Of a DNA stretch of 64,000 nt, positions 1,235-11,850 are shown piece by piece. The notes under the pieces are model-generated. The model saw nothing but the letters and a program-made list of their open reading frames with translations, did no database searches and was not told the origin of the DNA. The stretch is from [Synechococcus] sp. NIES-970 (GTDB lineage Bacteria; Cyanobacteriota; Cyanobacteriia; Cyanobacteriales; MRBY01): assembly GCA_002356215.1 (NCBI GenBank), contig AP017959.1, forward strand, positions 2,062,195-2,126,194. Direction: 5' to 3'. A program made the translations under genes and the position numbers. Numbering within the stretch: position 1 is the stretch's first letter; every line of letters begins with the position of its first letter.

Positions 1235-1270
1235 AAACTGCATAAGCCAAAAATTGGGGTCACTATCACC
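1235..1270 (+). promoter_or_regulatory. Putative promoter element, copy A of a pair
   Basis: This 36-base block matches 10955-10990 at 27 of 36 positions without a gap. The conserved parts are AAACTGCAT at the left and GTCACTAT plus ACC at the right, with a variable middle that keeps AAATT. Two conserved blocks about 17 bases apart look like -35 and -10 boxes; AAC and GTC cores are typical of ECF-type promoters. It would give a leader of about 36 bases for the secreted repeat protein at 1307. The similarity is seen directly; promoter function is inference. Confidence 0.45.
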
Positions 1271-1306: not shown

Positions 1307-1786
1307 ATGATTCTTTCCCTCTCCTCCCGTTCCCAATCTTTCAAGCTCGCCACTGCTGGTGCTTTTCTCGCCCTCAGTGTTCTCAGCCTCGCCCAACCTG
1401 CTAAAGCCGACAACTCCTCTGTCAGCACGATGGTTTCAGAACAAACCAGTGCTGCCGTTGGCGTGGGCAACTCCACCTCTAACGTCATGGGCCAATCCAG
1501 CTTCCAGAACCAGAGCGGCTTCTTTAGTGGTGGTAACAACGGCGCTCAATCCACAATCATCGGTTCCCAAACCGCTGTTGCTGATGGTCTTTTCAATAAT
1601 GTCAACAATACCCTCGGTCAATCCACTACCCAACAGCAATCTGATGCCTTCGGGTTTGGGAACAATGGCAGCGTGGCCGACGTGGAAGCTCACCAAACTG
1701 GCGCAGGGATTGGTTTTGGGAACAATGTTGACAACAGCAGTTTCCAGAACAGCTTCCAGAACCAAAACTCTATCTTTTCTTTCTAA
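1307..1786 (+). CDS. Secreted Q/N/G repeat protein, curlin-like amyloid candidate
   Basis: The 159-residue protein starts with a signal peptide: SRSQSFK, a hydrophobic core, then PAKA-D, with cleavage likely after residue 34. The mature part is almost all Q, N, G, S, A and F. It has a regular repeat: unit 1 at residues 46-87, unit 2 at 88-129 and a partial unit 3 at 130-159. Units 1 and 2 are 42 residues long and each divides into subunits of 23 and 19 residues. Every subunit begins with Q-[TS] and has a G-x-x-N or G-N-N turn. Units 1 and 2 are identical at 17 of 42 positions. Curlin (CsgA) repeats have a comparable Q-x-G-x-x-N-x-x-x-x-x-Q logic, so a beta-solenoid amyloid is a reasonable inference. 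There is no cysteine. Two further secreted genes follow on the same strand. Confidence 0.72.
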   Translation: MILSLSSRSQSFKLATAGAFLALSVLSLAQPAKADNSSVSTMVSEQTSAAVGVGNSTSNVMGQSSFQNQSGFFSGGNNGAQSTIIGSQTAVADGLFNNVNNTLGQSTTQQQSDAFGFGNNGSVADVEAHQTGAGIGFGNNVDNSSFQNSFQNQNSIFSF

Positions 1787-1860: not shown

Positions 1861-2289
1861 ATGAAAATCATCTTCCCCGGATCCCCGTTTTGGATCATCT
1901 TTACCCCTTCTCTGCTCGTGCCGGTTACGTCCATCCAGATGCCTGCCCAGGCGGCCTGCGTGATGACTGATGTTTCTCTCCAGGTGGCGATCCACGGTTC
2001 TCCCAACCCTGCCAACCAAAGCAATCAAGTGTTTATGGGAACGGGTGTTCAACCCTGTTGGGGCAATACCACCACCCACACTAGCACCCAGCTCTATGTG
2101 GGCTCTGGGAATACAACCCAACAACGTACCAGTGGCCACTTTATCGAGGGTAATGGTGATCATCCCCTTGCCCCCTACGGTATCCAAAGCCCAGTCGTTG
2201 GCACCCAAATCAGCGTCCCGATCGATATCTACAGTCCCGCCCATGATCCGAATTTTCTCGAATCTTTAGGACTACCCATTAACCCTTAA
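1861..2289 (+). CDS. Small secreted protein of unknown function
   Basis: The 142-residue protein has a signal peptide ending near MPAQA-A (about residue 31). The mature part is about 110 residues and contains only two cysteines (ACVM and QPCWG), which could form a disulfide. It is rich in T, N, G and S and ends in a proline-containing tail. No family is recognised. It lies 74 bases after the amyloid-like repeat protein and 31 bases before the next secreted gene, so the three probably form one transcript. A role as chaperone, nucleator or minor subunit for the repeat protein is inferred from position only. Confidence 0.6.
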   Translation: MKIIFPGSPFWIIFTPSLLVPVTSIQMPAQAACVMTDVSLQVAIHGSPNPANQSNQVFMGTGVQPCWGNTTTHTSTQLYVGSGNTTQQRTSGHFIEGNGDHPLAPYGIQSPVVGTQISVPIDIYSPAHDPNFLESLGLPINP

Positions 2290-2841: not shown

Positions 2842-4260
2842 ATGAGTTATCCGCAGCAGTATTGGCATCTCTATCGCATTAGTCTCCAACGGCGTCAGGG
2901 TTACGAACAGATGTCGCTACCCACGGCCCAAACTTGGTTAAACCAGGCCAAACCGGACAGTCAGGGACTCCCAGAACAACTGCTACAACTTTTTCGCGAT
3001 CGCCAAGGGGACTTACAAGGGCAAGCTTTAGCGGGGCTGTGTTTGCGCTGTTATGTATCCCAACCAATTCTCCAGAGTTGTCAGCGGCTGGCCAGTCTAT
3101 TTAGCGCCCAACAGAATTTTACCTATCAAGAATTACTGCCCTTCGCTCTCAATGATGACGGTCAAAAATTGATTCTGCTTGACGAAGCTACGGATAGTCA
3201 TCAAGTCCAACTGAACCCCAATAACGCCCTCCACCCCTGCCAGTTTCAGATCTTTGGGGTGGAAATTTTGCGATCCTATGGAGCCCAGCGGGACAACAAA
3301 CTCAGTTTGAAAAACTGGGCTTTTTTGAAAACAAAGCAACATCCAGAGATTCGCGCCTTTCTCTCGGAATTTGGCTTTCAACATCTAACAGATTGGGCTT
3401 TGTTAAACCGCGCCCGCAAAACTCAATTTGATCAACTTGCCCCCGCTGACCAAACCCTCCTCCAAGGATTCCATGGGGTATACCGCCGCGATCGCCGTTG
3501 CCAGGCCAACCAGCGCAGCAAGTGCAAACCGCCCACCGAAGCGCAACTTTTAGAAATAGACAGTTACTGTTTAGAGCAGGGTTATCCGAGCCGGGAACCG
3601 AAGCTATTACTCCGGGATTTGCAGCGCCTTGCCGAACAGTTGCGCCAATATGATTTGTGGCGATCGCGCGAAAGCCTAGAAACCTACGATGCCGAAAGTG
3701 GCGACTACGCCCCCAGACGGGATCTGCCCCAGGAGAGCTTTGATGAAGGGGATTTAGAACAACGGGAATTGCAGCAATTTCTCCACAGGCAATTGGCGAT
3801 CGCCTTTGAAGAAAGTCTCCAGCATAGCCTCACAGAAAAACAACAGCAGCTCGCCAAAAGTAAACGCTACAAACCCTTTGCCGAGCTTTATTTCACCGGA
3901 CTGTCTCTTTACTATGTCCAGGCCCAATCCCTCGCGGAGATCGCCCCCCAACTGGGGATGAGTAGCTGGGATCAAGCCCGTCGCATTCTCAATCCAGGCG
4001 ATCTGCTTAACCAGGTGCGCCGCCAAACCACCGAAAAGCTCCTTGCCAAACTCCTTGACCTCGCCCGCCAAAAGGGAATTATCAGCGCCGAGCCGGAACC
4101 CAACTACCTAAGTTCCCTCTGCCAGCAACTAGACCAGTTTGTAGACCAAGAACTGTTTGCCGAAGCCGCCGCTGAAATCCGTAGCGGTAAGAATCGTCGC
4201 TTCGATAGTGCCTACGCCCAAAAACTTAAGCATTATCTCCCCAATATCACCCCGAACTAA
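2842..4260 (+). CDS. Sigma-70-like helix-turn-helix protein, first gene of the CHAT operon
   Basis: The 472-residue soluble protein has no signal peptide. Near residues 365-395 it carries a region-4-like helix-turn-helix: SLAEIAPQLGMSSWDQARRI, followed by a basic helix with NQVRRQ. Cyanobacteria have large, poorly studied proteins with this kind of C-terminal sigma-like HTH, often beside DUF1822 and CHAT genes; that recollection is family knowledge, not a search. The N-terminal 330 residues are helical, Q/L-rich and lack recognisable sigma regions 2 and 3, so it may not be a true sigma factor. A Cys/Arg-rich patch (RRDRRCQANQRSKCK) lies near residue 215. The DUF1822 gene starts 34 bases downstream. 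DNA-binding control of this block is inferred. Confidence 0.55.
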   Translation: MSYPQQYWHLYRISLQRRQGYEQMSLPTAQTWLNQAKPDSQGLPEQLLQLFRDRQGDLQGQALAGLCLRCYVSQPILQSCQRLASLFSAQQNFTYQELLPFALNDDGQKLILLDEATDSHQVQLNPNNALHPCQFQIFGVEILRSYGAQRDNKLSLKNWAFLKTKQHPEIRAFLSEFGFQHLTDWALLNRARKTQFDQLAPADQTLLQGFHGVYRRDRRCQANQRSKCKPPTEAQLLEIDSYCLEQGYPSREPKLLLRDLQRLAEQLRQYDLWRSRESLETYDAESGDYAPRRDLPQESFDEGDLEQRELQQFLHRQLAIAFEESLQHSLTEKQQQLAKSKRYKPFAELYFTGLSLYYVQAQSLAEIAPQLGMSSWDQARRILNPGDLLNQVRRQTTEKLLAKLLDLARQKGIISAEPEPNYLSSLCQQLDQFVDQELFAEAAAEIRSGKNRRFDSAYAQKLKHYLPNITPN

Positions 4261-4294
4261 TCTCTAATCTTGCCCGACGCCGAGGAGCCCCAAA

Positions 4295-5296
4295 ATGTTC
4301 ACCCCATCTGAATTCCGCCTACTCATCCCCGAAGAAATAACCCTCAGCGAGCTTGACTATGCCCTCGTCCAAACCTGGCCTGATGGGAATTTGTCCGAAG
4401 CTGACCAGTGGCAAGCCTATCTCAATGGGCTCGGGTTGATCGCCTTTGAACAATGGTTAGGCGATCGCCTGCCGGAAAAACGTCCCCAACGGGATCTCAC
4501 CCATCTGTCCAAGGTGGCCTATGTGACCGTGGGGGGCTTCAAGGTTTGTCTCCTGGCCCAAAGCGACTACCTCGACGAACAGGTGCTGTGGCCCCAGGCA
4601 TCCGTTGAACAGCCGGAACTGGCTGCCCATTTCTACGGCATTGTCGAGGTGGATGAAGAAGCTGAAACCGTAATTTTAAGAGGCATCAGTCGGGGCGATC
4701 GCCTACGTAATTCTCCTAAACGGGATGGCTATTATCAGCTTAGCCTTGACCACTTCGATGCCGAGCTGAATCACTTTCTCGCCGACTGCCGTTATCTTTC
4801 CCCAGCCGCTATTTCTCTCCCCACAAATGCCTTTGCTCACCTCCAAGCCCAGATCAGTGAAACCGCGACAAAACTGGGAAATTGGGTGGATGGTCTGTTG
4901 GAACAAGGTTGGCAAGCCCTCGATCAGCTGATGGTCCCCGAAGCGCAACTGGCCTTTGCCACCCGTAACCTCAGTGAAGATGTCCAAGCCGGTAAACTAC
5001 TCGACCTTGGCCTCAGCGTGGGTAATCAACAGGTGGTTCTACTCGTGACCCTGACCCCCGCCGAAGACGATAAATTTCGGATCCAAGCCCGGCTTCTCCC
5101 CTTTGAAGCGGCCTATCTCCCAGCAAATCTGAGTATTTCCCTCAAGTCTAAATCTGGCAAAGCTTTGCAAACTGTCACCAGTCGTCAGCAAGACAGCTAT
5201 ATCCAACTCAAACCCTTTAAGGGCGTCCCCGGTAAAGTATTCCAAGTGGAGGTGAGCGGCGATGGTTGCACCGTCAACGAAACCTTTGAAATTTAA
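4295..5296 (+). CDS. DUF1822 family protein
   Basis: The 333-residue protein matches the cyanobacterial DUF1822 family in its opening (a PEEI-like stretch, then QTWPDG...QAYLNGLGLIAFEQWL) and in its three-part make-up. An alpha-helical N-terminus is followed by a barrel-like part around YVTVGGFKVCLL and a C-terminal beta domain with LGLSVGNQQVVLLVTL and an immunoglobulin-like end. Function is unknown. The family is known from CHAT-protein neighbourhoods in cyanobacteria, which is the situation here. Its last 35 bases overlap the CHAT-STAND gene, indicating translational coupling. There is no membrane segment or signal peptide, so it is probably cytoplasmic and may be a substrate or adaptor of the CHAT protein. 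Confidence 0.75.
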   Translation: MFTPSEFRLLIPEEITLSELDYALVQTWPDGNLSEADQWQAYLNGLGLIAFEQWLGDRLPEKRPQRDLTHLSKVAYVTVGGFKVCLLAQSDYLDEQVLWPQASVEQPELAAHFYGIVEVDEEAETVILRGISRGDRLRNSPKRDGYYQLSLDHFDAELNHFLADCRYLSPAAISLPTNAFAHLQAQISETATKLGNWVDGLLEQGWQALDQLMVPEAQLAFATRNLSEDVQAGKLLDLGLSVGNQQVVLLVTLTPAEDDKFRIQARLLPFEAAYLPANLSISLKSKSGKALQTVTSRQQDSYIQLKPFKGVPGKVFQVEVSGDGCTVNETFEI

Positions 5297-8200
5297 CTGG
5301 CTCAGTGATGGGAGCGTCACCATTGCCCTCGCCTTTGGTCGGGGGAGCTTAACGACAGGCTTTCTGGGGGTGACTGCCCAAATCTGGGAACTCGATGCCC
5401 CCTTACCCCAGCAATTCATTGGGCAACTCCCGCCTTTTCCAGACCTGCTCAATAGCCTGCAACAATGGCAAGCGGTGTATCTGGCCCTCGCCCAACGGCT
5501 GCAACTGGGACGGCAACGACATCTGGAAGGCCTGCGCAGTTTTGACGATGACGACGATGATTTTGAAATCGAAGAAGATGCTGTGACCCATGTGTCCCAG
5601 GTGAGTTTTGAGGACCTGTCCCAACGGCTGCAGCGGCAACTGAATGAATGGCTCCTCAGCCCTGGGTTTACGCTTATTGTCCAGGCGCTGCGATCGCATC
5701 TTTCCCCAGACATGCCCCTGCGGTTAATTTTGCAGACAGATGACGCGCATCTGCACCATTTGCCCTGGCAGGGTTGGCAATTTTTAGTGGATTACCCCTT
5801 GGCGGAGGTGGCCCTTAGTCAGCCCCAGTTTTATCGGCCCAAGGCGATCGCCCCCCAGAAAAAACGGCAACGGGTGCGCATTTTAGCGATTCTCGGCAGT
5901 AGCCAGGGCATCGATCTGGCCGCCGAAAAACAGCAATTGACAGCCGTCCCCGATGCGGAAGTGCAATTTCTCTCGCAACCTTCTCGCCAGGAATTTGATG
6001 CGGCCCTCTGGGACGATCAAGGCTGGGATATTTTATTTTTTGCGGGCCACAGCCAGACAGAACAACAAACGGGCCGCCTCTATCTCCACGATGGGCCAGA
6101 GCACCGCAGTTTAACCCTGGAACATTTACAGGAAGCCCTGCGCACGGCCCTAGAACGGGGTTTGCAGCTGGCGATTTTTAACTCCTGTGATGGCTTGGGT
6201 CTGGCCAATAGTTTAGGCAATCTCCAAATTCCCGTGACGATCGTGATGCGCGAACCCGTGCCCAATCGAGTCGCCCAGGACTTTTTTCAACATTTTCTCG
6301 CCGGTTATGCGATCGCCCAACTGCCCCTCTATCAGGCGGTAAAACAGGCCCGGCGCCAACTACAAGGGCTCGAAAACGATTATCCTGGGGCCGCTTGGTT
6401 ACCGATCATTTGTCAAAACAGCGCCCTCTTGCCCCCCACCTGGTTGCAGCTCGGCGGCCTGCCCCCCTGTCCCTATCGCGGTTTAAATACCTTTCAAGAG
6501 CAGGATGCGGCGGTTTACTTCGGGCGGGAGAACCTGCAAGAGCAGTTGCGAGAACGACTCCAAACTCAACCGCTGTTACCGCTGGTGGGGGCATCTGGCA
6601 GTGGTAAATCGTCCCTGGTGTTTGCGGGGTTGCTGCCTCGGTTGCGTCAAGACTCGCGCTATGACTGGGCGATCCAGGTGATGCGTCCAGAAAACAACCC
6701 CCTAGCCAGGCTGGCCCATGTTGTGGCCGCTTGGCAGGCTGATCTGACAGAGGCAGAGATATGCCAGAGTTTCCAAAAAGATCCCCAAAGCTTGGTCGCG
6801 GTATTGGGGATGATTTCCCAAACTCAACCGAGGCAAACGCGCCGCCTCTTGATCATCGATCAATTTGAGGAACTGTTTACCCTTAATAGCCCGGAGAGCC
6901 AACGACAATTTTTAGACCTGTTGGTGGCGGCCATTGAAGAAGTGCCCCAGTTTGTCATGCTACTGACCCTGCGGGCCGATTGCGTGGGGACAGTGCTAGA
7001 ACATCCTGGCCTGGGGAAACTCTGGCAAAAGCATGAACCGGAATTTTTGCTGCCCCTTTCCCGTGAGGATCTCCACCAGGCGATCGCCCAACCAGCGGCC
7101 CTGATGGGGGTGCGGTTTGAGCCGGGTTTAGTGGAAAAAATACTCACAGAGGTGCAGGACCAAGCGGGAAATTTACCCCTCCTCGAATTTGCCCTCACCC
7201 AACTGTGGCCCCACCAGGAACAGGGCTGGCTCACCCACGCTGCCTATGACCAATTAGGGGGAATCACCGCCGCCCTCCGGGACTATGCCGAACAGGTTTA
7301 CGGGAAACTAGCCCCTGCCCAGCGACCCCAGGTGCAGGCCCTCTTTTTACAGCTGATCCAAGTACGGGAAGGGGCAGAGGCAACCCGGCGCATTCTACCG
7401 AAACCAGAAATTCAGAATTGGCCGCTGGCAGTGCAGTTAGCTTCAGAGCGCTTACTCACCACCAACCGCGACTCGATCCAGGACACAGAAACAGTGGAAA
7501 TTGTCCATGAAGCGCTGATTCGTCACTGGCACCGTCTCCAGACCTGGATTGCCGATAATGCCGATTTTTTGCGCTGGCAAACCCGTCTAAACAACGCCAT
7601 CGCCCAATGGGAAAGCCACAACAATAGCGATGGCTACCTATTGCGCCAAGCGCCCTTGGTGGAGGCAGAGTTTTGGCTTGATAAAAGTCCCGATCGCCTC
7701 AGTGATGTCCAGCGCTTTTTTATCAATTTGGGGCTGGATTTACGCACCCAAGAAGAAACGGCGATCGCCCTTAGGCAGCAGCGAGAATTAGACCAGGAAC
7801 GGCGGATCCGGCGGGGAGCCCAAAAGCTGGCAGTGCTCTCTTCGGTGGCTTTGGTATTGCTGACTTTGGCGGGGGGCTGGACCTGGTGGGAGCGGCAGCG
7901 ATCGCTCCAAATCATCGAGACGGTATCGATCAACAGCGCCGCCACAACGCCCACTCTCCTCAGGGATCTACCCCGTTTTCTCAACCTAGCCCAGCGGCGA
8001 CAGCGGCGGGGGGAATTTGACTTGGCGATCGCCTATTACCAGAAAATTTTGCAGGAAATCACCAAGCTCCAGACGCGGCCTGATTTAGCGACGGCCCAAC
8101 AGCAGCAGCTCCAAACCCTCACCGAAAATGCCCAAGCAAGCCTGGTGGAAGTAATCCAGCAGCAACAATTACCCACGCTTGAAATGGCCCTAGCCCAAGG

Positions 8201-8585
8201 GGAATTTGGCAACCTGAAATCGGCGACGAATTTGTTGGATTATGAAGATCAATATACCGCTGGGGCACTCCGGGAAACCTATCGTCTACTGCTACGTCCC
8301 CAGGGAGCAAATGCCGATCTCAATCAGGACGGGGAGATCAACCACAGCACCGAAGCCCAACAGTTGCCCTGTCCACTTTTGCAAGCCATTGAAACCCTCT
8401 GGCGTGACCACAGCGATCAACAGTGCGGCTTCTATGGCGATCGCTCCTTTTATAATGCCCCTACCTGTACGCCCCTCGCTGGCCGCACCCTCACAGAAAC
8501 GATTTTCGTCGGTGACTATGGGGCGGTTGGCGATCGCCTCAAAGCCTGTCAAGTAGCCCCTAGGGATGCCGACCCCTACCAGTAA
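5262..8585 (+). CDS. CHAT-domain protease fused to STAND NTPase, membrane-anchored
   Basis: The 1107-residue multidomain protein begins with about 150 residues that include an acidic run (near 90-110). A CHAT (caspase-like) domain follows, about 150-390, with the His-Cys dyad intact: H263 in FFAGHSQ and C309 in NSCDG. From 410 to 800 lies an nSTAND1-type P-loop NTPase: Walker A GASGSGKSS with K449, Walker B LLIIDQFEELF with D533, then the winged-helix part ending in IVHEALIRHW. A transmembrane segment lies at about 856-878. The C-terminal about 230 residues contain helical TPR-like sequence and an EF-hand/dockerin-like loop DLNQDGE near 1019. The known logic of CHAT-STAND proteins is signal sensing, ATP-driven assembly, then proteolysis of a partner. 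The ATG lies inside the DUF1822 gene. Confidence 0.85.
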   Translation: MVAPSTKPLKFNWLSDGSVTIALAFGRGSLTTGFLGVTAQIWELDAPLPQQFIGQLPPFPDLLNSLQQWQAVYLALAQRLQLGRQRHLEGLRSFDDDDDDFEIEEDAVTHVSQVSFEDLSQRLQRQLNEWLLSPGFTLIVQALRSHLSPDMPLRLILQTDDAHLHHLPWQGWQFLVDYPLAEVALSQPQFYRPKAIAPQKKRQRVRILAILGSSQGIDLAAEKQQLTAVPDAEVQFLSQPSRQEFDAALWDDQGWDILFFAGHSQTEQQTGRLYLHDGPEHRSLTLEHLQEALRTALERGLQLAIFNSCDGLGLANSLGNLQIPVTIVMREPVPNRVAQDFFQHFLAGYAIAQLPLYQAVKQARRQLQGLENDYPGAAWLPIICQNSALLPPTWLQLGGLPPCPYRGLNTFQEQDAAVYFGRENLQEQLRERLQTQPLLPLVGASGSGKSSLVFAGLLPRLRQDSRYDWAIQVMRPENNPLARLAHVVAAWQADLTEAEICQSFQKDPQSLVAVLGMISQTQPRQTRRLLIIDQFEELFTLNSPESQRQFLDLLVAAIEEVPQFVMLLTLRADCVGTVLEHPGLGKLWQKHEPEFLLPLSREDLHQAIAQPAALMGVRFEPGLVEKILTEVQDQAGNLPLLEFALTQLWPHQEQGWLTHAAYDQLGGITAALRDYAEQVYGKLAPAQRPQVQALFLQLIQVREGAEATRRILPKPEIQNWPLAVQLASERLLTTNRDSIQDTETVEIVHEALIRHWHRLQTWIADNADFLRWQTRLNNAIAQWESHNNSDGYLLRQAPLVEAEFWLDKSPDRLSDVQRFFINLGLDLRTQEETAIALRQQRELDQERRIRRGAQKLAVLSSVALVLLTLAGGWTWWERQRSLQIIETVSINSAATTPTLLRDLPRFLNLAQRRQRRGEFDLAIAYYQKILQEITKLQTRPDLATAQQQQLQTLTENAQASLVEVIQQQQLPTLEMALAQGEFGNLKSATNLLDYEDQYTAGALRETYRLLLRPQGANADLNQDGEINHSTEAQQLPCPLLQAIETLWRDHSDQQCGFYGDRSFYNAPTCTPLAGRTLTETIFVGDYGAVGDRLKACQVAPRDADPYQ

Positions 8586-8634
8586 TATTCCGTCCAATAC
8601 CCGCAAATTTTAAAACTTTAAAGGAGACCCCGCG

Positions 8635-9801
8635 ATGAACCCCCGAAATACTGCCCTTGCCTTGAGCCTTTGCTGTCTCGGTTTGGCCCCCCTAACTGTG
8701 GCCAGTACCCCCCAGGCCAGTCAATTGGTTTCTATGCGGGGGACCTATGTGATGATCCAGCGCGGCAGTGAACGACCCGCCTTCGCTCGGGTGGGAAATC
8801 GCCTCGAAAGCCGTAACCAAACCCTCCTGATTCCTGGCAATAATTATTCCCTGGCCCGTCTCTCCTTTGTGGGGGGTGGCCAGGGCTATGCGGGCTTAGT
8901 GGTCCAGGCGGGCCCAGATTTACAGCAGACCCATTATCAGTTTCCCTGTGTGGTCAGTCGCGGCAAGGTGACCCTCAGTTGGCGCCAGGGCAACAATCGC
9001 GGTTGTGAAGAGGGGATCCATCTCAGTCCGAATCGCTCTGGGGCTAAACACCATAAACAGAGCACGAAACAAACAGCCCCCCAGAACATGGAAGGGATTA
9101 TTATTCAACCGGCTAATGACAATGCGGTGATCCTCCAGGCCCGCACCATTGGCGATCGCAAAATTGTTGATGCCCTCGAAGGGGAAATCAACCTGATCTC
9201 GGCCGCCCACCCCCAAGGGTTTACCCTCCAGCCTGGTCAACGTTATAGTCTCGATGGCAGCAATCCAACTGCCAGCCCCCAGGTAGAACCGATCAATACC
9301 GCAGCGATTCTTAATTCCCCAGAACTGCAAGATTTTCTCAATCCCAGCAATTGGACTGCCCCAGGGGATACCCATGCCAGCGGCCCAGAGCAGACTCCCC
9401 CGAGAACCCCAGACCGTCAACCCCCGACGGGATATCCCTCGAACACCGGGAGCAATGGCGGTCTTTGTGAAAACTATTTCACAACCCTGCAAAGGTTTAT
9501 CCAGGAAGCCCAGGCGATCGCCCCAGAAATTTGGGCTTTTACGGATAATCCCTACGCTTTTTTAAATCAGGTCAATAATGGGCAGGCCACAACCCTCGAT
9601 GGGGCGCAACAAGACCGTCTGCGCCAATGGGCAGAGGACTTTATTCAAGAGCTCGAGCGTTGTCAATTTGCGCTCCCAGGCCTCCCGCCGACCACGGAAA
9701 CGGAACCAGAGAACTCCGACGGCACGCCCAACGATCCCCCCCCTGCCAGCCTTGATCCAGATACATCCCCAGAACTAAGGCCAAATTCTTCCCGGTACTA
9801 A
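8635..9801 (+). CDS. Exported protein with FecR-like repeats, paralogue 1
   Basis: The 388-residue protein has a signal peptide (cleavage near LTVAS-T). Residues 30-130 (ASQLVSMRGTYVMIQRG onward) resemble a FecR-type beta domain, with two cysteines (FPCVV and RGCEE) shared with the next gene. A second beta domain around 155-245 ends in ELQDFLNPSNWT, also shared. A Pro/Thr-rich linker leads to a unique helical C-terminus of about 75 residues, then a Pro-rich tail. Ribosome site AAAGGAGA precedes the ATG by about ten bases, and the CHAT gene ends 49 bases upstream. FecR-like assignment is by pattern only. It could be the periplasmic sensor or target for the membrane-bound CHAT protein. Confidence 0.6.
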   Translation: MNPRNTALALSLCCLGLAPLTVASTPQASQLVSMRGTYVMIQRGSERPAFARVGNRLESRNQTLLIPGNNYSLARLSFVGGGQGYAGLVVQAGPDLQQTHYQFPCVVSRGKVTLSWRQGNNRGCEEGIHLSPNRSGAKHHKQSTKQTAPQNMEGIIIQPANDNAVILQARTIGDRKIVDALEGEINLISAAHPQGFTLQPGQRYSLDGSNPTASPQVEPINTAAILNSPELQDFLNPSNWTAPGDTHASGPEQTPPRTPDRQPPTGYPSNTGSNGGLCENYFTTLQRFIQEAQAIAPEIWAFTDNPYAFLNQVNNGQATTLDGAQQDRLRQWAEDFIQELERCQFALPGLPPTTETEPENSDGTPNDPPPASLDPDTSPELRPNSSRY

Positions 9802-9803
9802 CC

Positions 9804-10955
9804 ATGCAACTTTTTAAACCGATTGCGTTCGTTCATCTCACGCTTTTTGGGTTACTAGGTCTGACGCCCCTGCTCCGGGCCAGTACCCCCAGCGCCAGCC
9901 AGATCGTCTCCCTCCAAGGCGATCGCCTCCTCCTCCAAACAGGTAACCAGCGCCCCAACCCCGCCCAAGTGGGCAGCCGTCTCGCAAGCCAAAACCAGGC
10001 CCTCATCGTTCCAGGAAACAATATCTCCCTCGCCCGACTTGCTTTTCTGGGAGGCGGCCAAAGCTACGCTGGCCTGCTACTCCAGGCGGGCCCCGACCGA
10101 CAACAAACCCAGTATCGTTTTCCCTGCGTTGTTGCTGGGGGACGGATCACCCTCAGTTGGCGACGGGGAGAACAGCGAGGCTGCATCGATGGCATCCGCC
10201 TGGGGACTGGAACCACAGCTCCCAAACAGCAGACCAAGGCTAATCCCAAAGATCAAGGGCTTGCCCTAACCCCAGCAATAGCCATGGCCCTGACCATTCA
10301 ACCCGAAAGCCACGAGGCAATTTTGTTACGGGCGGTGACCGATGACAATTTTCAAGCCGTTGAGACGCTCCAGGGGGCAATCCGCATCACCTCGGCCCAA
10401 CATCCCCAGGGTTTTATCCTCCGTGCTGGGGAGATTTATTACAGACTAGCCAATGGTCAAGAACAAACTGAATCTTTTGAACCCGCCGCGGCGATCGCCA
10501 ACTCTTCAGAACTCCAAGAATTCTTAAATCCGCATAATTGGACCCATTCCCCAACTCCTCAACCCATTTCCCAAGACATCACTAACCACCTGGTCGCCCT
10601 CCGGGATCCAGGGCAGCATCCTGGCACCGATCCCCAGAGCATGCCCGAATTAACTGCCAGTTGCCAAGCAGAAGTAGATGTTTATCTAGCCAATCTCAAA
10701 GCCACCATGGGAAATACCTGGCGTCCCCCCTATCCACCTTCCCCTGGGGTCTGGCGCACTGAAGTCACCTATCTGCTCACCAGGGAGGGCCGGGTGCAGA
10801 ATCTCCAAATTGTCAGATCCAGCGGTGTTCCCAACCTCGACCAAGCTGCTCTCAGCCATGTGCGTGCCCTAGAACAGCGTTTTGTGCCCTTTCCCAGTTG
10901 CTATCCAGGCACATCATTGCCCGTAGATAACAACTTCACTGTCCGCTATCAATAA
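9804..10955 (+). CDS. Exported FecR-like protein with TonB C-terminal domain, paralogue 2
   Basis: The 383-residue protein has a signal peptide or anchor (MQLFKPIAFVHLTLFGLLGL). Its first about 250 residues align throughout with the preceding gene, including the paired cysteines (FPCVV, RGC), the GNNxSLARLxFxGGGQxYAGL stretch and the FLNPxNWT end. The C-terminal about 100 residues differ: they match the TonB C-terminal domain, with VTYLLTREGRVQNLQIVRSSG, then LDQAALSHVRA and FVPFP. TonB domains contact outer-membrane proteins. Only two bases separate it from the upstream gene, so they are co-translated. Tandem duplication with a C-terminal domain exchange is the simplest reading. Confidence 0.68.
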   Translation: MQLFKPIAFVHLTLFGLLGLTPLLRASTPSASQIVSLQGDRLLLQTGNQRPNPAQVGSRLASQNQALIVPGNNISLARLAFLGGGQSYAGLLLQAGPDRQQTQYRFPCVVAGGRITLSWRRGEQRGCIDGIRLGTGTTAPKQQTKANPKDQGLALTPAIAMALTIQPESHEAILLRAVTDDNFQAVETLQGAIRITSAQHPQGFILRAGEIYYRLANGQEQTESFEPAAAIANSSELQEFLNPHNWTHSPTPQPISQDITNHLVALRDPGQHPGTDPQSMPELTASCQAEVDVYLANLKATMGNTWRPPYPPSPGVWRTEVTYLLTREGRVQNLQIVRSSGVPNLDQAALSHVRALEQRFVPFPSCYPGTSLPVDNNFTVRYQ

Positions 10956-10990
10956 AACTGCATTAGTTCCAAATTCCAGTCACTATTACC
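10955..10990 (+). promoter_or_regulatory. Putative promoter element, copy B of a pair
   Basis: This is the second copy of the 36-base element described at 1235-1270: AAACTGCAT, AAATT, GTCACTAT and ACC are conserved in the same spacing. It begins at the last base of the TonB-domain gene and would drive the exported protein at 11059 with a leader of about 68 bases. Promoter function is inferred. Confidence 0.45.
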
Positions 10991-11058: not shown

Positions 11059-11850
11059 ATGCTATTCAACACCCTGATCAAATCCGCCGCAATTCCTTTC
11101 CTCTCGCTTCTCGTGATGGGCACGGCGACGCCCGCCTTTGCTAACCCCCAAGCCGCTGAACCGTCCCTAGAAATTCAATTGCAACAGCTCAAAGACCGCC
11201 TTGCAGGTCTTGAAGCCCAGACCCATTCCCTTGAGGGAAGCTCTCAAGCTGTGGCGATCGCCCCCAGCTCCCATTCCTCCAACCACCAGGGCACCGTCCA
11301 GGGGAATCTGCACCATACCTCCCCTGCGATGCCAACGTCCTTGGCGGCTCAGTTAACCCCTGCCACAGCTATTTTGGTGAACTTCCCCAGTGCCGTGGTG
11401 GTAGATGTGGGTCAAAAAGATGACTATCCCCTCACCCTGCCCCTGTTCCAAGATTTACGGAGCCCCGTTGGAGAGCTGCTCGCTCCTGCCAATACCCCCG
11501 TTACCCTGCGGATTAAGCCCCACGAAGATGGTGCCATTCTCGTGACCGACTCGATTATCGTCAATGGTCAAGTGGTCAATCTCCAAGCCCAGAGCAGCAC
11601 GATGATCCCAGGTCGCACCGTTACCCAACGGACTGCCCAGGAAATGGCCAGACAAAACGGCGCCGTCTGGGGCAACCTCAGCACAGCGATCGCTGGGGCA
11701 ACGGGGACAAATATCCGCACTCAGCAACAGTTCGGTTTCCTCGGGGCAGCGGTAGGTATCCTCTCTGGGATGGGCTCTCCCGATAGCCTCCGGATTGTAG
11801 AAATTCCCGCTGGCTCCGTCCATCTCCTCCAGGTGCAAGGCCAACATTAA
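11059..11850 (+). CDS. Exported protein of unknown function, short coiled coil then beta domain
   Basis: The 263-residue protein has a signal peptide ending at PAFA-N (about residue 29). Residues 37-60 form a short amphipathic coiled coil (IQLQQLKDRLAGLEAQ). After an S/H/Q-rich linker comes a beta-rich domain at about 110-200 (LPLFQDLRSPVGELLAPANTP, IKPHEDGAILVTDSIIVNG). Its pattern of an untunable default followed by INGQVVNLQAQS recalls the TrbI/VirB10-like cores of some cyanobacterial exported proteins; that likeness is weak. A Gly-rich hydrophobic stretch (FGFLGAAVGILSGMG) near 225 may insert in a membrane. It carries promoter element copy B and ends before a terminator, so it is a separate unit. 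Confidence 0.6.
   Translation: MLFNTLIKSAAIPFLSLLVMGTATPAFANPQAAEPSLEIQLQQLKDRLAGLEAQTHSLEGSSQAVAIAPSSHSSNHQGTVQGNLHHTSPAMPTSLAAQLTPATAILVNFPSAVVVDVGQKDDYPLTLPLFQDLRSPVGELLAPANTPVTLRIKPHEDGAILVTDSIIVNGQVVNLQAQSSTMIPGRTVTQRTAQEMARQNGAVWGNLSTAIAGATGTNIRTQQQFGFLGAAVGILSGMGSPDSLRIVEIPAGSVHLLQVQGQH

Follow-up and report, generated by a model that had tools for sequence, protein, structure and literature searches.

A cyanobacterial CHAT-nSTAND1 protease cassette as a candidate envelope-sensing transcription switch

Introduction

What does a membrane-anchored, caspase-like protease control when its gene lies next to that of a sigma-like protein? The question is raised by a gene cassette within a 64,000-nt window (the whole stretch of DNA analysed here) of the 3.1 Mb genome of [Synechococcus] sp. 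NIES-970 (AP017959.1). A sequence-only reading of this window had described five genes in head-to-tail order and proposed a membrane-spanning circuit from signal to proteolysis, possibly acting in defence. Predicted bacterial caspase-like conflict systems are mostly without a known trigger and readout, and this locus offers candidates for both ends.

Our analysis favors, with moderate confidence, a role for the cassette as an envelope-sensing, protease-gated transcription switch with exported proteins as its output. This proposal draws on a rare domain paired with exported FecR-fold proteins, on the exchange of one clan-CD protease for another, and on a promoter-like motif that accompanies one clade of the sigma-like family.

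Results

Layout of the cassette

The five open reading frames are present as proposed, encoding 472, 333, 1107, 388 and 383 amino acids (aa), with spacings of 34 bases, a 35-base overlap, 49 bases and 2 bases. The genes and the parts of the central protein, which carries CHAT and nSTAND1 domains and a transmembrane (TM) helix, are as follows.

2842..4260, + strand: sigma-like helix-turn-helix (HTH) protein, 472 aa, joined by iterated profiles to relatives that match Pfam sigma regions 2 and 4
4295..5296, + strand: DUF1822 protein, 333 aa (Pfam E 4e-47)
5262..8585, + strand: CHAT - nSTAND1 - TM - four-Cys domain protein, 1107 aa
6048..6188, + strand: CHAT catalytic stretch, codons H263 to C309, from dyad conservation
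6471..7631, + strand: nSTAND1 NTPase domain, residues 404-790 (Pfam PF20703, E 4e-116)
7815..7886, + strand: single membrane helix, residues 852-875, after RRIRRGAQK, from hydropathy
7902..8582, + strand: predicted extracytoplasmic four-Cys sensor domain, from an alignment of homologues
8635..9801, + strand: b1, exported FecR-fold protein, 388 aa, paralogue of b2
9804..10955, + strand: b2, exported FecR-fold protein with a TonB/TolA-like C-terminal domain, 383 aa, from model match and Pfam TonB_C

The NTPase retains both Walker motifs, A as GASGSGKS (residue 443) and B as LLIID (residue 529). Because the one membrane helix follows a positively charged stretch, the positive-inside rule predicts a location beyond the inner membrane for the last 230 residues. 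The H263/C309 dyad, previously taken to be intact, is widely conserved in FAGHS and NSCDG contexts, the His being kept in 37 and the Cys in 38 of 41 aligned CHAT domains. The Pfam CHAT model gives no match to this domain of the window protein, but it does match the full-length relative L070 (2e-13) and all 42 of the other relatives scanned. By sequence, the solved structures matching the CHAT protein were consensus-TPR designs only. At three loci of the same kind (L086, L089 and L096), a CHAT-like protein encoded near DUF1822 lacks the catalytic His as well as the Cys and is likely a pseudoprotease.

The core gene order and its earlier description

The sequence-only reading had named absence of this gene order from other cyanobacteria as a refutation; the order is kept in many of them. 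Among 60 relatives, DUF1822 occurs in 54 genomes and CHAT/nSTAND1 homologues in 46, and the order HTH/sigma-like - DUF1822 - CHAT/X is near-universal in the fetched cyanobacterial loci. The X part varies, being CHASE2, nSTAND1 with WD40, or the four-Cys domain; CHASE2 is found in 31 of the 42 CHAT proteins that lack nSTAND1.

The earlier view that this is not a described system does not stand. The core is of a known, predicted kind, since passages of Kaur et al. 2021 (PMC8195603) outline loci in which ‘EACC2’-plus-caspase proteins with variable C termini adjoin an ECF sigma factor and DUF1822, and predict a transcriptional output for these neighborhoods. In those loci a constant EACC2 domain stands before the protease; many of the proteins studied here carry a conserved N-terminal module before CHAT. 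What is new relative to this core is the motif with its target genes, the pairing of sensor and exported partner, and the replacement of CHAT by C14.

Exchange of the protease domain

At two of the eight loci with the four-Cys domain (L122 and L119), the place of CHAT is taken by a Peptidase_C14 caspase whose His and Cys are intact. Their layout is otherwise unchanged, comprising a sigma-like gene, DUF1822, an nSTAND1-TM-four-Cys part and b. Such an exchange between clan-CD proteases with the rest kept argues for proteolysis as the function of this module. A different arrangement is seen in L120 (G332), where the nSTAND1-TM-four-Cys protein has no fused protease, the b gene comes next and a separate CHAT gene follows two genes on; this locus has no sigma-like gene and no DUF1822 gene.

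A four-Cys domain paired with exported FecR-fold proteins

The four-Cys domain is rare, with strong matches in 8 of 386 genomes, and its cysteines (1037, 1055, 1069 and 1096) are invariant in an alignment of 8 homologues. An exported b-type gene is present in 8/8 loci with the domain, spanning six genera, and adjoins none of the compared CHAT genes without it. The sensor domain also contains an EF-hand-like loop, DLNQDGEIN (window 8316-8342, residues ~1019-1027), followed by a GUN4-like LPC..L..IE.LW motif under the Pfam cut-off. Membership of the GUN4 family was rejected, as the Pfam matches fell below the cut-off and covered the model only partially.

The sequence-only reading had called the exported proteins FecR-like. 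Pfam does not show this likeness at the sequence level; fold comparison of b2 confirms it. In the AlphaFold2 model of b2, which has a mean predicted local distance difference test (pLDDT) score of 70 with domain blocks at 80-93, residues 61-240 adopt the periplasmic fold of FecR-type anti-sigma proteins (4m0n, 4m0h and PupR 6ovk_R; Z 13.0-13.3 over 126-132 residues). The stretch from residue 287 to 383 resembles the C-terminal domains of TonB/TolA (Z ~9), in line with the TonB C terminus reported for the fifth protein (Pfam TonB_C, E 5e-7). The TonB C-terminal domain is confined to b2 and, among the members seen, TonB_C is limited to the genus of the window. Neither the fourth protein, b1, nor the first, sigma-like one has a significant Pfam family. 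In the N-terminal b domain, Cys105 and Cys124 are invariant in 13 homologues. Both b1 and b2 have an N-terminal signal-like helix only; a membrane helix and a cytoplasmic anti-sigma domain are absent from them.

CHAT proteins without nSTAND1, mostly of the CHASE2 type, have a different neighbor. An exported DUF928 gene follows theirs in 20 loci (for example L083, L094, L101 and L187), which suggests that DUF928 is the extracytoplasmic partner of this version.

A promoter-like motif before exported genes

A two-box, promoter-like motif, AACTGCATNAG-N15/16-CTATNA, occurs before exported genes on both sides of the five-gene group.

1236..1268, + strand: motif AACTGCATAAG-N16-CTATCA before s1, with the 12-base core AAACTGCATAAG
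1307..1786, + strand: s1, exported protein, 159 aa, with Q/N/G-rich repeats and a signal peptide-like N terminus
10956..10988, + strand: second motif, AACTGCATTAG-N16-CTATTA, before x6, with equivalents before x6 in L062, L063 and L173
11059..11850, + strand: x6, exported 263-aa protein containing a coiled coil; adjoins the cassette in L062, L063 and L173

The gene s1 holds an equivalent place in L062, L063 and L173, and the core AAACTGCATAAG 5' of it is identical in these loci and the window, with CTATNA 15-16 bases on. The motif precedes x6 in L173 too, even though the gene there is on the opposite strand. Across the window genome, CTGCATNAG-N14..18-TATNAC has exactly 3 sites: two stand ahead of s1 and x6, and the third precedes an s1 paralogue at another place. 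When the spacing is fixed and one mismatch is tolerated, a single further site appears, before an exported lipoprotein gene; a match of this kind arises by chance about once per cyanobacterial genome. The orthologues of the lipoprotein gene in G001 and G002 likewise carry the motif. The motif targets in the window genome are thus exported proteins. Reversed-pattern controls gave no sites in this genome, and Markov simulation gave ~2 box pairs at gaps 15-16 against 25 observed, which rejects a chance origin.

The motif follows the sigma-like family. The 41 loci with this family contain 22 box pairs at gap 16, the average for the other gaps being 1.5, and the 39 loci without it contain zero at gaps 15-18. 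Within the family, the motif is found at 13/17 loci of the window's sigma-like clade and at 1/25 more distant ones (p ~1e-6), with relatedness inflating the motif counts. A blind scan of 84,980 genomes (257 Gb) with the pattern AACTGCATAAGCT-N14-CTAT matched 34 contigs, 25 of them cyanobacterial. Cassette genes lay within the fetched stretch for 16/25 cyanobacterial contigs and 0/9 others, counts to be read with the origin of the pattern in the loci analysed here and the close kinship of some matches (e.g. Moorena and Nostoc) to them. All nine non-cyanobacterial matches fell inside open reading frames.

Further copies were observed at other places. A lone, nearly identical second s1 copy with an identical promoter region lies at L220:7763-8242 on the minus strand (G000:C1, ~1.888 Mb). 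The s1 copies are more alike within than between genomes, a pattern that suggests gene conversion. In Cyanothece sp. BG0011, three tandem motif copies, 59 bases apart, lie 5' of the cassette's s1 homologue (L293:5388-5506, minus strand). A lone third FecR-fold copy in G001 (L124:8988-9927) has a weaker motif-like site (13/15) 124 bases upstream.

A sigma-like protein or an activator

The motif could be read by the HTH protein as a sigma factor, the identity that we prefer. It is among the weakest links of the model. The label ‘sigma-like’ given by the sequence-only reading rests on relatives of the window protein, which itself has no direct Pfam sigma match, a point against a sigma factor. Pfam sigma region 4 matches 4/41 family members, the window member not among them, and region 2 matches 1/41 at E<0.01, with a weak match in L122. 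Also against a sigma factor, the family HTH is nearer to a deoxyribonucleoside-regulator/SorC-type domain (E 1.7e-6) than to SigF (1.4e-3), and its profile matches that of the short ECF-like proteins found at other loci weakly. In addition, no motif lies directly before the window's own sigma-like gene; the motif does directly precede the sigma-like gene in L081 and ~10 scanned cyanobacterial loci.

Because of the missing Pfam match and the DeoR/SorC-type likeness, the protein could instead be a DNA-binding activator that occupies AACTGCATNAG at the -35 position, with the housekeeping sigma factor reading the TATNA box and the rest of the circuit unchanged. The length and high conservation of box 1 would suit such an activator. 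We nevertheless regard it as unlikely. Relatives at the same position match Pfam sigma region 4 and in one case region 2; the two boxes keep a fixed spacing of 15-16 bp; a short ECF-like protein fills the same slot in most other loci; and the protein was likewise named an ECF sigma factor in the passages of Kaur et al. (PMC8195603). A sigma factor thus remains our preferred assignment.

DUF1822 as candidate inhibitor

The AlphaFold2 model of the DUF1822 protein (pLDDT 87.5) combines an alpha/beta N-terminal part with an Ig-like C-terminal sandwich. This architecture led us to reject DUF1822 as a TPR protein, the description given in the passages of Kaur et al. (PMC8195603). Kinship with a solved anti-sigma factor was also set aside, there being no match by sequence or fold, an absence that is not proof. 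The want of any known anti-sigma likeness in the fold comparison counts against the proposed inhibitor, and the role of DUF1822, including the presumed action of CHAT on it, is among the weakest links of the model. In L097 (6062-8029), the C-terminal half of DUF1822 is fused behind an NB-ARC/NACHT NTPase, and the protein therefore appears modular.

This fusion, together with an Ig-like part of a kind that is often an adaptor fold, fits another arrangement, in which CHAT is self-activating, or has the sigma-like protein as its direct target for trimming, and DUF1822 holds the complex together as an adaptor. Autopeptidase activation is proposed in the passages of Kaur et al. (PMC8195603). This arrangement seems doubtful to us, as the Craspase precedent (PMC10028731), in which a CHAT protease cleaves Csx30, an inhibitor of a sigma factor, favors cleavage of a sigma inhibitor. 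Moreover, the DUF1822 gene lies between the sigma-like and protease genes, with translational overlap with CHAT in the window, L062 and L063. We therefore retain DUF1822 as the probable inhibitor and substrate.

The wider unit

The cassette is larger than five genes: it also takes in four exported genes, three of them upstream (1307-2734) and the fourth downstream (11059-11850). In addition to s1 and x6, the unit includes:

1861..2289, + strand: s2, exported protein, 142 aa; same position in L062, L063 and L173
2297..2734, + strand: s3, exported protein, 145 aa
2760..2812, + strand: terminator- or attenuator-like RNA hairpin between s3 and the sigma-like gene (fold z-score -2.7)

The genes s1-s3 and x6 are kept with the cassette in L062, L063 and L173, the last from another family. 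The s3 gene occurs in 4/386 cyanobacterial genomes, with the cassette in all 4 and immediately 5' of the sigma-like gene. An inverted repeat similar to the hairpin is visible in L062 and L063. The hairpin may permit lower-level read-through from the s1 promoter into the cassette.

Discussion

The circuit proposed in the sequence-only reading is borne out in its membrane-spanning sensor-STAND-protease arrangement and its exported FecR-fold partners, and gains a link to transcription. In our model, b1 and b2, together with the four-Cys extracytoplasmic domain, would detect some state beyond the inner membrane. From there the signal would cross through the single membrane helix to the nSTAND1 NTPase, which may assemble and activate the clan-CD protease fused to it, be it CHAT, as at this locus, or the C14 caspase of some relatives. 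Once active, this protease could release the sigma-like protein from restraint, most likely by cutting DUF1822 as its inhibitor. The released protein would direct RNA polymerase to AACTGCATNAG-N15/16-CTATNA promoters, turning on the s1-s2-s3 operon, the s1 paralogue, x6, the lipoprotein gene and probably its own operon.

The defence role that had been suggested finds no backing here, as PADLOC returned nothing meaningful (sub-threshold matches to the NTPase only) and the genes that share the motif encode exported proteins and not toxic effectors. It is for the same reasons, and because few features are as well conserved as the order sigma-like - DUF1822 - CHAT, that we judge it quite improbable that CHAT and DUF1822 form a separate death or defence response, with the motif merely co-regulating the cassette and its secreted neighbors, even though passages of Kaur et al. 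(PMC8195603) treat CHAT and caspase STAND proteins as conflict or apoptosis systems.

More tentatively, and short of what we would presently expect to hold in full, the cassette may represent an unrecognised class of cyanobacterial sigma-like proteins with its own promoter, controlled through a CHAT- or caspase-STAND protease that is anchored in the membrane and responds to exported sensors of FecR fold, and serving routine envelope control and not suicide. If true, this would tie a caspase/CHAT protease to ordinary envelope gene control, provide a parallel to Craspase without CRISPR and add a promoter class for cyanobacteria. What makes the circuit testable is the pairing of sensor and partner, the exchange of protease and a promoter accompanied by target genes. 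The trigger end would be the FecR-fold proteins paired with the extracytoplasmic domain, and the readout end a short promoter suited to reporter fusion.

The closest described loci are those of the EACC2-caspase type, with which the window has in common sigma-like and DUF1822 genes beside a caspase-like protease gene, as well as C-terminal variability (here CHASE2, WD40 and four-Cys). The passages of Kaur et al. (PMC8195603) on these loci name no promoter, target genes, FecR-fold exported partners or four-Cys sensor. As for the promoter, SigJ J-box promoters in Nostoc (PMC6495340) are likewise a dedicated class for a cyanobacterial alternative sigma factor. Identity of the present motif with the J-box was rejected, since its consensus, GGGaAtacT, is unlike AACTGCATNAG-N15/16-CTATNA.

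Craspase, the type III-E CRISPR system of Csx29 (TPR-CHAT), Csx30 and CASP-sigma (PMC10028731), similarly co-encodes a CHAT protease, a sigma factor and a partner. Its switch is the proposed cleavage of a sigma inhibitor, and a like logic is proposed here. However, Csx30 has no shown likeness to DUF1822, and Craspase is activated by RNA, whereas the protease part here is a membrane-anchored STAND module, CHAT-nSTAND1-TM. Unlike the gRAMP/Cas neighborhood of Craspase, the ten window proteins scanned include no Cas family. With FecI/FecR and PupR cell-surface signaling, the cassette shares the periplasmic fold of the exported b domain and a linked sigma-like gene. In contrast to those systems, its FecR-fold part is a separate exported protein, and the membrane is crossed by the protease protein itself.

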